IMG/VR virus record: IMGVR_UViG_3300020419_001285
Coordinates: 1 to 46,362 of that record
From: a virus
Strand: one strand, 5' to 3'
Length of the DNA: 46,362 nt
In this document: piece by piece, positions 14,036-46,362 of the stretch
How the letters are laid out: every line of letters begins with the position of its first letter
How positions within the stretch are numbered: position 1 is the first letter of the stretch
Position numbers and translations under genes: made by a program
Notes under the pieces: generated by a model
Databases searched by the model: none
Seen by the model: the letters and a program-made list of their open reading frames with translations, nothing else
What the model was told of the DNA's origin: nothing

Positions 14036-14920
14036 TTATTCTTCAGCTAAACGCTGGAAGTATGAAAGTGCGTCATCGCCCTCATCAGATTCACTAAAAC
14101 TAGTGGCTACCTCTTCTTCGGGTCTTGGTGGCAATTCCTCAGATGCAACTTCTTCGTCAAATGCTTGACTTACAGTTGATTTCTTATTACCAAGGACATA
14201 ATCAAACCTCTTTTTCAGTTCGTCATAAGTTTTGAACTGAGAGGCATCGGTAATCTCAGCGAGTGAGTATTCCTTCTTCCATAATTCTTCCAATGCTTTA
14301 TCATCATCGAGAAGAGGAGAAATCGCAGCGAATTCAGAACTATCATAGTTCCAGTATCCTGCTACTTTCTTGATCTTAACTTTGAAGTTAGCACCTTGCC
14401 AGAAGTCAAAAGGATTGATTGGGGATTCATCCTCAAACTCAGGTTGCATAGCACCCATTATCTTATCGAAGATTTTCTTACCAAACTTATAAAGGAAAAC
14501 TTTTCCCTCATTATCTGGGTTGGAAGGATCCTTCACAACATAGATGTTAGTATAATATGATAACTTACGCTTTTGGTTACGAGCAAGTTGCTTATTAGCG
14601 TCAGAACCAGAATTCCATAATTCAGTATTGTATTCTGAAACAGGGTCTTTACCACCGATGGTAGTTAAAGAATTTTCAATATACCATCCACCTGGACCTT
14701 GGAATGCATGTGAATACAGTTTTGCCCAAGGGAGGTCTTCCTTATCTGGTGCAGGAAGAAAACGAATAACTGCATAACCGTTACCTGCTTTGTCAACTTC
14801 TGGTTTCCAAAGACGGTCATCGGAACCGTTACCTGTTTTGTTGGTCTTCTCTACTTCTTTAACAAGCTTTGCTGTTAGAGAACCGAGAGATGATTGCTTT
14901 TTAAGTGATGCAAAAGACAT
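14036..14920 (-). CDS. gp32: Single-stranded DNA-binding protein gp32
   Basis: 294 residues (T4 gp32, 301). It coats single-stranded DNA in replication, recombination and repair. Seen: a basic Lys/Ser N-terminus (LKKQSSLGSL) like the T4 LAST motif; core motifs YAVIRFLP, KLSYYTNIYVVKDPSNPDNEGKV (read as two adjoining parts), YKFGKKIFDKI, NPFDFWQGANF; and a C-terminal acidic tail (DESDEGDD type, ending FQRLAEE) that recruits partners in T4. There is no cysteine in the protein, so the Cys zinc ligands of T4 gp32 are absent. The gene has a near-perfect sigma70 promoter and a repeat-containing leader with no Shine-Dalgarno, and ends in a strong terminator, so it can be expressed alone. Confidence 0.95.
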   Translation of the reverse strand: MSFASLKKQSSLGSLTAKLVKEVEKTNKTGNGSDDRLWKPEVDKAGNGYAVIRFLPAPDKEDLPWAKLYSHAFQGPGGWYIENSLTTIGGKDPVSEYNTELWNSGSDANKQLARNQKRKLSYYTNIYVVKDPSNPDNEGKVFLYKFGKKIFDKIMGAMQPEFEDESPINPFDFWQGANFKVKIKKVAGYWNYDSSEFAAISPLLDDDKALEELWKKEYSLAEITDASQFKTYDELKKRFDYVLGNKKSTVSQAFDEEVASEELPPRPEEEVATSFSESDEGDDALSYFQRLAEE

Positions 14921-14950
14921 AGATTTGGCTTTTTATTAGATTTGGCTTTT
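14921..14950 (-). promoter_or_regulatory. gp32 mRNA leader with tandem 13-base repeats
   Basis: Two exact copies of AAAAGCCAAATCT (minus strand; 14950-14938 and 14933-14921) lie 17 bases apart, the second ending directly at the gp32 ATG. The leader is A-rich, appears unstructured and lacks a Shine-Dalgarno sequence. T4 gp32 represses its own translation by binding an unstructured A/U-rich leader; these repeats are a candidate site for the same control (inference). Confidence 0.55.
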
Positions 14951-14960
14951 GTACTGGTCT

Positions 14961-14989
14961 ATTATAGGGCGACAGTGCTCCCATGTCAA
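14961..14989 (-). promoter_or_regulatory. Perfect-consensus sigma70 promoter for gp32
   Basis: On the minus strand: TTGACA (14989-14984), 17-base spacer, TATAAT (14966-14961). Both hexamers and the spacing match the bacterial consensus exactly. The predicted start is near 14954, giving a leader of about 34 bases made almost entirely of the tandem repeats. The -35 overlaps the stop of the upstream 109-residue gene. Confidence 0.85.
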
Positions 14990-15315
14990 CTAAAATTCTT
15001 GCGAAGGTTTGAAAGAGTATCCTGCATATTCTTGAATAAAAGATCAGGATTAACATCTTTAGGGAAACCTACTAATTGTGCAGATTGATGAATTTGCTCC
15101 ATCATATCCTTAGCACGAGGATCATCAGATAGTTTCAATCTCATATAAAAATTTCTCTGCTTGTCCAAAAGAGTCTCTAATTGGTCAACATGTTCCATCT
15201 TCTCGTTATGAGATAATTTCTCAAATGCAAAGATCTTTGCATAGATCTCTTCTTGCATTCTATTGATCTCATTTATAGATTCTTGAACTTGCTCTGATGC
15301 AAAGAAATCAGACAT
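14986..15315 (-). CDS. Small helical protein between gp33 and gp32
   Basis: 109 residues, largely charged helix (SINEINRMQEEIYAKIF; KMEHVDQLETLLDKQRNF) and probably coiled coil. In T4 the order is 33-59-32, but this is half the size of gp59 and no gp59 feature was seen. It starts 12 bases after gp33 ends. The late motif at 15324-15331 is so close that a transcript from it would have almost no leader; Met21 (15255) is an alternative start. Function unknown. Confidence 0.65.
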   Translation of the reverse strand: MSDFFASEQVQESINEINRMQEEIYAKIFAFEKLSHNEKMEHVDQLETLLDKQRNFYMRLKLSDDPRAKDMMEQIHQSAQLVGFPKDVNPDLLFKNMQDTLSNLRKNFS

Positions 15316-15323
15316 AATACTAG

Positions 15324-15331
15324 TATTTATA
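15324..15331 (-). promoter_or_regulatory. T4-type late promoter TATAAATA at the end of gp33
   Basis: Perfect TATAAATA on the minus strand, overlapping the gp33 stop. The expected start (about 15318) is only 2-3 bases ahead of the 109-residue gene's ATG at 15315, so the message would be nearly leaderless or would use a later start. Confidence 0.5.
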
Positions 15332-15581
15332 AGGGTAGTTTAGCACGAGTGGTCTTTTTCATGAAATTAAGATTTATTGCATCTGCCTTTAATTTCTCCT
15401 TTAGTGGTTTAGAAATTAATTTAGTAACAGAGTCAACTTCAATACTATTTTTCTCACAAAACAGAACTATAGCATCGATATAATTTACTTTTTCTTCTAA
15501 CACAAGTTTCTCTACTTCAAGAGAAAACTTGGCAGCATTCATGAATTTTTTATCTAATGCTTTGGTTAATTCATTTTCCAT
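15327..15581 (-). CDS. gp33: Late transcription co-activator gp33
   Basis: 84 residues. The segment VEKLVLEEKVNYIDAIVLFC followed by EKNSIEVDSVTKLISKPLKE lines up with the T4 gp33 core (IEKMV...SYLEA...EENSI), although T4 gp33 is longer (112). gp33 binds the host RNA polymerase beta flap and links it to the sliding clamp and gp55 for late transcription, which suits the many TATAAATA promoters here. It overlaps the nuclease gene upstream by 11 bases and is two genes upstream of gp32, near the T4 order. Confidence 0.8.
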   Translation of the reverse strand: MENELTKALDKKFMNAAKFSLEVEKLVLEEKVNYIDAIVLFCEKNSIEVDSVTKLISKPLKEKLKADAINLNFMKKTTRAKLPL

Positions 15582-44989: not shown

Positions 44990-45017
44990 ATTATAGCATA
45001 TAATTTGTTAATTACAA
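44990..45017 (-). promoter_or_regulatory. Sigma70-like promoter overlapping the psbD end
   Basis: Minus strand: -35 TTGTAA (45017-45012, four of six), 16-base spacer, -10 TATAAT (44995-44990, perfect). The start would fall in the terminator hairpin, so transcripts from it would escape that terminator. Confidence 0.45.
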
Positions 45018-46088
45018 GGCATTACCACGAGGTAATACTTCTTCTGGGAACACGAAGTTCTCATGTGGTTGGTCAACAGATGACATCCATGCTCTCATAC
45101 CCTCATTTAAAAGAATGTTCTTTGTATAGAAAGTCTCGAACTCTGGGTCTTCTGCTGCTCTTATCTCTTGAGATACAAAATCGTATGCTCTTAAGTTAAG
45201 TGCTAGACCTACAATACCTATAGATGATGTCCACATACCCATGACAGGTACGAACAACATAAGGAAGTGTAAGAATCTCTTGTTAGAGAAAGCAATACCA
45301 AATATCTGTGACCAGAATCTGTTTGCTGTAATCATACTATATGTTTCTTCTTCCTGTGTAGGATCGAATGCTCTGAATGTAGAACTCATTGATTGATCGT
45401 TACTGTAAGTAGAAGTATCTTCATACAATGTGTTCTGTACTGTTGCACCATGAATGGCACATAGTAATGCTCCACCTAGTATTCCTGCCACTCCCATCAT
45501 ATGAAATGGATTGAGTGTTATGTTATGGAAACCTTGTATGAATAAGATATAACGAAAGATTGCTGCGACACCAAATGAAGGTGCGAAGAACCAACTGTGC
45601 TGACCTAAAGGATAGATCAGAAAGATGCTAGTGAAGACTGCGATAACAGCAGAGAATGCTAGTGCGTTGTAAGGTCTGATGCCTACAAGTCCTGCGATCT
45701 CAAATTGTCTGAGCATGAAACCTATGAGTCCGAACACACCATGTAGTGCTACGAAATTCCAAAGTCCACCGAGTTGAACCCAACGAACAAATGAACCTTG
45801 TGCTTCAGGTCCCCAGAGGAACATGAGACTATGACCCATTGCGTCACCAGGTGTTGACACTGCTGCTGTTAAGAAGTTTGCTCCTTCAAGATATGAAGAT
45901 GCAATACCATGTGTATACCAACTCGTAACGAATGTAGTTCCTACGAACCAACCACCGATTGACAAGTATGCACAAGGTAAAAGTAAAAGACCAGACCATC
46001 CGACGAATACGAAACGATCTCTCTTTAACCAGTCATCAAGAACATCAAACCAACCTCTTTGAGGTGCTCTTAAAGTAGATGCTACCAT
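45012..46088 (-). CDS. psbD: Photosystem II D2 protein
   Basis: 358 residues (usual 352-353). Nearly full identity to cyanobacterial D2 in blocks: [80 protein letters not shown], and the C-terminal [11 protein letters not shown]. The iron and quinone histidines lie in [14 protein letters not shown] and FSNKRFLHF. It has an insert of about seven residues in the stromal loop after NTLYED (TSTYSNDQS type). Phage D2 keeps photosystem II going during infection. AGGA precedes the ATG. It lies 58 bases after psbA, with a terminator between. Confidence 0.98.
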
Positions 46089-46146: not shown

Positions 46147-46362
46147 TTAACCGATTGCAGGTGCTGTTAAAGCAACTGTTGTAGACTCAGCAGATGCTAG
46201 GTCTAATGGGAAGTTGTGTGCATTTCTTTCGTGCATTACTTCCATTCCCAAGTTTGCTCTGTTAAGAACGTCTCCCCAAGTTGGAACAATCTTACCGTTA
46301 GCATCTACAACTGATTGGTTGAAGTTGAAACCGTTAAGGTTGAATGCCATTGTACAGATACC
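46147..46362 (-). CDS. psbA: Photosystem II D1 protein, C-terminal part (cut by window edge)
   Basis: The open frame runs off the window at 46362; 71 codons are visible ([20 protein letters not shown] ... [38 protein letters not shown]). This is the conserved end of D1, with the manganese-cluster ligands in the M-E-V-M-H-E-R-N region and the C-terminal Ala of the mature chain (DLA), followed by a tail removed by the CtpA protease. Phage D1 replaces light-damaged host D1. The ATG visible at 46350 is internal, not the start. Confidence 0.98.

Follow-up and report, generated by a model that had tools for sequence, protein, structure and literature searches.

The stretch of DNA analysed here, 46,362 nucleotides of a virus record from IMG/VR (hereafter the window), carries heme oxygenase and photosystem reaction-centre genes and was therefore assigned to a cyanophage. 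On its minus strand, positions 14036 to 14920 encode a 294-residue protein without cysteine that matched the Pfam family PF08804 (E = 8e-49) and the T4 and RB69 gp32 structures (E = 1e-48 to 5e-51), confirming the identification, made in a first-pass annotation, of this gene as that of the single-stranded DNA-binding protein gp32. Since its N-terminus, MSFASLKK, is common to the window and its relatives, the start codon is considered sound. Upstream on the same strand, a Pfam scan placed a DUF1825 gene (14986 to 15315) and a gene for a gp33-like late-transcription coactivator (15327 to 15581); this gene row also includes a PD-(D/E)XK nuclease and PhoH. The helicase loader gp59, usually encoded between gp33 and DUF1825, is absent at 15315–15327, and tblastn with S-SM2 gp59 detected it neither in the window nor in a 180-kb relative (G001). 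A photosystem II reaction-centre gene (Photo_RC) is located at the window end, and a short ORF preceding it on the same strand, with no Pfam match, resembles by eye the C-terminus of a second Photo_RC; the two occupy 45012–46088 and 46147–46350.

The gp32 gene is preceded on the minus strand by a −35 hexamer, TTGACA (14984 to 14989), that overlaps the TGA stop codon (14988–14986) of the DUF1825 gene and is separated by a 17-nt spacer from a −10 hexamer, TATAAT (14961 to 14966). This is the only zero-mismatch sigma70 site in the window, as had been noticed at first reading, with 0.03 such sites expected by chance in dinucleotide shuffles. Sites with up to two mismatches occurred at chance frequency (15 versus 15.7 expected), so weaker promoters in the window could not be judged on this basis, while the description of the site as the only perfect one still holds. 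The −10 box predicts an mRNA leader of about 34 nt (14921 to 14954, minus strand) that is A/C-rich, G-poor and probably unstructured; the 45-nt leader segment had a predicted minimum free energy (MFE) of −0.3 kcal/mol. Two exact copies of AAAAGCCAAATCT occupy 14950–14938 and 14933–14921, as first described, and the gp32 ATG (14920–14918) directly follows the second copy. The array of the window thus consists of two AAUCU units, 17 nt apart, inside exact 13-mers, the second unit abutting the ATG. Nowhere else in the 46 kb does an exact 13-mer recur within 25 nt, and none did so in 60 order-1 simulations. None of GGAG, GAGG, AGGA or AAGG precedes the ATG, in agreement with the earlier statement that the window leader has no Shine–Dalgarno sequence.

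To see how far these features extend, we compared 232 distinct 45-nt leaders of gp32 genes from cyanophages and their close relatives, collected by IMG/VR scans with gp32 queries and from isolates. At least two AAU(A/C)(C/U) units were present in 97% of these leaders but in only 6% of the roughly 1,300 leaders of other genes at the same loci; taking one gp32 representative per 80% identity cluster gave 96% of 25 clusters. The typical leader reads GTACACACAAGCCAAATCC-NNNN-AATCCGAGGTAATCCAA-ATG, with the core AAU(A/C)(C/U) occurring two to five times. The step between successive units was 9 or 10 nt in 304 cases, and the distances had another peak at 17–20 nt, which includes the 17 nt of the window; the final unit mostly ended 0–4 nt before the ATG. 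A motif-free test of base identity by lag gave peaks at 9–10, 19–20 and 29 in gp32 leaders and was flat in other genes; tested alone against shuffles, only about half of the single leaders were significant. The Shine–Dalgarno sequence missing from the window is also missing from 23% of the leaders; it is present in the other 77%, mostly at −11 to −13, and sits between two units in 125 of the 178 leaders that have one. Mean leader MFE was −1.6 kcal/mol for gp32 versus −4.0 kcal/mol for other genes. In the whole genomes of G001, G004 and S-SM2, the full leader form was found before gp32 only, with five units in register in G004, and five three-unit AAUMY runs scattered away from gp32 across the three genomes are taken as chance occurrences.

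Conservation in related phages had been set beforehand as the check on the proposed repeat leader. The proposal survived this check: the repeats, their spacing and the promoter proved to be kept before gp32 in hundreds of phages and were rarely seen before other genes. The exact 13-mer is local to the window phage. Its closest relative (L001; 95% identity across the compared gp32 region) carries AAAAGCCAAATCT and AAGGCCAAATCT, so the identity of the two window 13-mers probably arose when an older two-unit form became locally homogenised. The conserved unit is not the 13-mer; the presumed ancestral unit is about 5 nt long (AAUMY) and recurs every 9–10 nt. Together, these comparisons provide good support for a conserved, gene-specific and phased array in the gp32 leader. 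In the open-access literature, we found neither a mapped cyanophage gp32 transcription start nor a description of this array, although subscription journals may differ.

We next considered more distant phages, using as an outgroup 61 gp32 leaders retrieved with a Stenotrophomonas phage gp32 as query. The outgroup proteins had a mean identity of 62% to the cyanophage gp32 set; for the two that were tested, the nearest named relatives include Methylophilales phage Melnitz with Pelagibacter phage HTVC008M, or Melnitz with cyanophages. Here, the leaders carry other words, such as AACGCAAUAC (L438), ACGUUAAUACU (L441) and ACCGUACAU (L435), repeated at a spacing of 9–11 nt. The array score was 4.5 for outgroup gp32 and 4.7 for cyanophage gp32, versus 0.8 for the other genes of the outgroup loci. 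Moreover, the score was 4.6 within one leader versus 0.9, near background, between phages whose gp32 proteins are 50–60% identical. Because the repeats match within a leader and not between distant leaders, the array and its phase have been retained while the word was replaced. Simple pairs of close relatives seemed to show convincing concerted change of unit bases, but this mostly failed with path-disjoint pairs, for which the same:opposite ratios at the fourth base were 6:1, 5:5 and 6:0 in the three slot pairs, with none at the fifth base. We therefore claim concerted change between distant lineages only.

The preservation of array and spacing in hundreds of phages, with a different word in distant relatives, fits a switch by which gp32 may shut off its own synthesis. 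T4 and RB69 gp32 are known to repress their own translation (PMC535899, PMC3014915). The T4 operator needs two elements: a pseudoknot at which binding nucleates, and UUAAA/UAAA repeats along which gp32 binds cooperatively across the ribosome site (PMC535899, PMC3014915). The closest known counterpart of the present array is the UUAAA-repeat half of this T4/RB69 gene 32 operator, of which the array would be a variant. Both concern the same gene, have little structure and extend from the leader to the ribosome-binding region, and both contain an unstructured short unit in several copies, which in T4/RB69 lies inside the footprint of the cognate protein. The unit itself differs: AAUMY in cyanophages, or words such as those of L438 and L441 in the outgroup, recurs at 9–11 nt here, whereas UUAAA recurs about every 5 nt in T4/RB69, and the T4-type UUAAA/UAAA unit was not found as the repeated word in either group. 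An Rfam scan of the window region returned no match, and the predicted 34-nt leader would have no room for a 5′ pseudoknot. The contrast drawn in the first-pass annotation between this leader and the T4 pseudoknot needs qualifying, since the repeats correspond to the other half of the T4 operator; no T4-like pseudoknot was seen in the window. On account of the different unit, the putative repression and the failure to find a pseudoknot in the window, we keep the gp32 array apart from the T4 operator class.

Other known systems resemble the array in part. The RB49 gene 32 leader, known here by its published description, likewise combines repeats with the lack of a pseudoknot, although its units are UUAA/UUAAA (PMC535899). 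The T4 gene 43 and RegA operators are similar to the proposed switch in that messages of phage replication genes are repressed at the start site (PMC3014915); however, the former is a hairpin bound by gp43 and RegA uses single sites in many messages, whereas a phased array at one gene is seen here. A report on marine Beggiatoaceae describes short direct-repeat arrays, TAACTGA, with a proposed post-transcriptional action, but counts 169 sets in one genome (PMC4679880), in contrast to an array essentially restricted to gp32.

Who would read the array, and in which form, was weighed among several explanations. Direct repeats beside a strong promoter are a common layout for repressors, and the units could therefore be double-stranded DNA operator sites downstream of the promoter, bound by a phage or host transcription factor. 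A sigma70-like promoter (up to two mismatches, within 110 nt upstream) was found at 90% of gp32 genes versus 9% of others, with the −10 box usually ending 38–49 nt before the gp32 ATG. However, at least two units are kept in 13 of the 14 leaders without a recognisable sigma70 promoter, and the repeats are anchored to the ATG. In addition, the units recur every 9–10 nt and not at the 10.5-bp helical repeat, which would keep several of them from lying on one face of the DNA. We consider a DNA operator improbable, and the array probably acts as RNA. An RNA could also serve simply as a constitutive high-output leader, in which an unstructured, CA-rich 5′ untranslated region recruits ribosomes, for example via protein S1, so that an early gene is highly expressed and feedback plays no part. 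The low structure, the low G content, the strong promoter and the usual Shine–Dalgarno position at −11 to −13 are consistent with this, and it is the more plausible of the competing explanations, though still unlikely: an enhancer requires no phasing at 9–10 nt, no lineage-specific repeated word and no restriction to one gene. We also considered the last unit as an extended anti-Shine–Dalgarno match, pairing GAGGTAATCC with GAGGTGATCC; this was rejected, as it leaves the upstream units and the AAUAC form unexplained.

If a protein reads the RNA, it need not be gp32. The gene regA has been reported in cyanophages (PMC2984593), and RegA binds single-stranded, unstructured sites that include the AUG or lie next to it (PMC3014915). 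Yet RegA acts on many messages and the array hardly occurs outside gp32 leaders, while a host factor would leave the dependence of the word on phage lineage unexplained, and we give a reader other than gp32 little credence. Lastly, the 13-mers of the window do resemble local homogenisation, as judged from L001, and one might suspect that the repeats lack a function and go back to replication slippage or simply to common descent. This seems very improbable for the array as a whole, because arrays of stable spacing span gp32 proteins of 60–80% identity in 25 clusters (80% cut) and other leaders at the same loci have none.

Among these possibilities, repression of gp32 synthesis by gp32 itself, reading the array with no need of a T4 pseudoknot, is the best explanation, to which we assign a probability of roughly 55% from sequence comparison. 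According to this model, the strong promoter for the host sigma factor would yield a short, G-poor and unstructured leader with phased units up to the start codon. When gp32 is in excess of the available single-stranded DNA, cooperative loading of its monomers onto the array would cover the ribosome-binding region and stop gp32 synthesis. The array would thereby let gp32 favour its own message without the T4 pseudoknot. T4 gp32 occludes 7 nt (PMC10484735), less than the 9–10-nt period, which counts against the analogy. More tentatively, and at somewhat less than even odds, marine T4-like phages may have a pseudoknot-free, sequence-coded gp32 operator as a general device: phased RNA units would be read by a mostly zinc-less gp32, and the word would co-diverge with the protein while the array and phase are conserved, so that a supposedly non-specific single-stranded DNA-binding protein would gain specificity for its own message.

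The zinc domain of T4 gp32 is essential for repression according to the title of a study (ref. B40) cited in PMC535899. The ligands C77, C87 and C90 of its His-Cys-Cys-Cys site, a feature of T4 gp32 that is no requirement of the Pfam family, are absent from the window gp32, and the zinc cysteines are absent from 247 of 253 gp32 relatives; the T4 mechanism is therefore not simply transferable to these phages. Six relatives (L157, L233, L234, L238, L243 and L246) have a cyanophage-like gp32 with T4-like zinc cysteines (C..CPVC). Because their leaders have repeated units too, zinc loss does not explain the array, and a tie between the two that we had considered was dropped.

These results bear on two questions raised in PMC535899, namely by what means gp32 distinguishes its message from other single strands and whether T4-like phages lacking the pseudoknot repress their own gp32. 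With at least three different words among them, the hundreds of natural arrays constitute a ready set for binding and swap work, and the array offers a recognisable signature of the gp32 start site in abundant marine phages.

Finally, we looked for structures 5′ of the array. No conserved structure was found there in the window's own clade. A candidate hairpin in the −35/−10 spacer was rejected, as the ACAGGT/ACCTGT palindrome of the TTGACA clade is broken in near relatives, and strong stems were little more frequent in the spacer than in nearby coding DNA. In the S-RIM2-like cyanophage clade, a covarying hairpin (UGCUAC/GUAGCA) lies just 5′ of the gp32 array, at about −60 to −30, in L087, L090–L109, L116, L123, L126, L152 and similar leaders. 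Compensatory changes were seen in 5 of 18 sequences at one pair and in one at another, and covariation was 0.27 versus at most 0.11 in slid controls. This hairpin comes after a late-promoter-like TAAATA inside the sigma70 spacer. A manA RNA (RF01745, 153–194 bits), to which the Rfam scan of the window region gave no match, is located directly upstream of gp32 in six of the 14 relatives without a recognisable sigma70 site (L011, L034, L051, L192, L249 and L252), where it replaces the sigma70 promoter and the repeat units are kept downstream.
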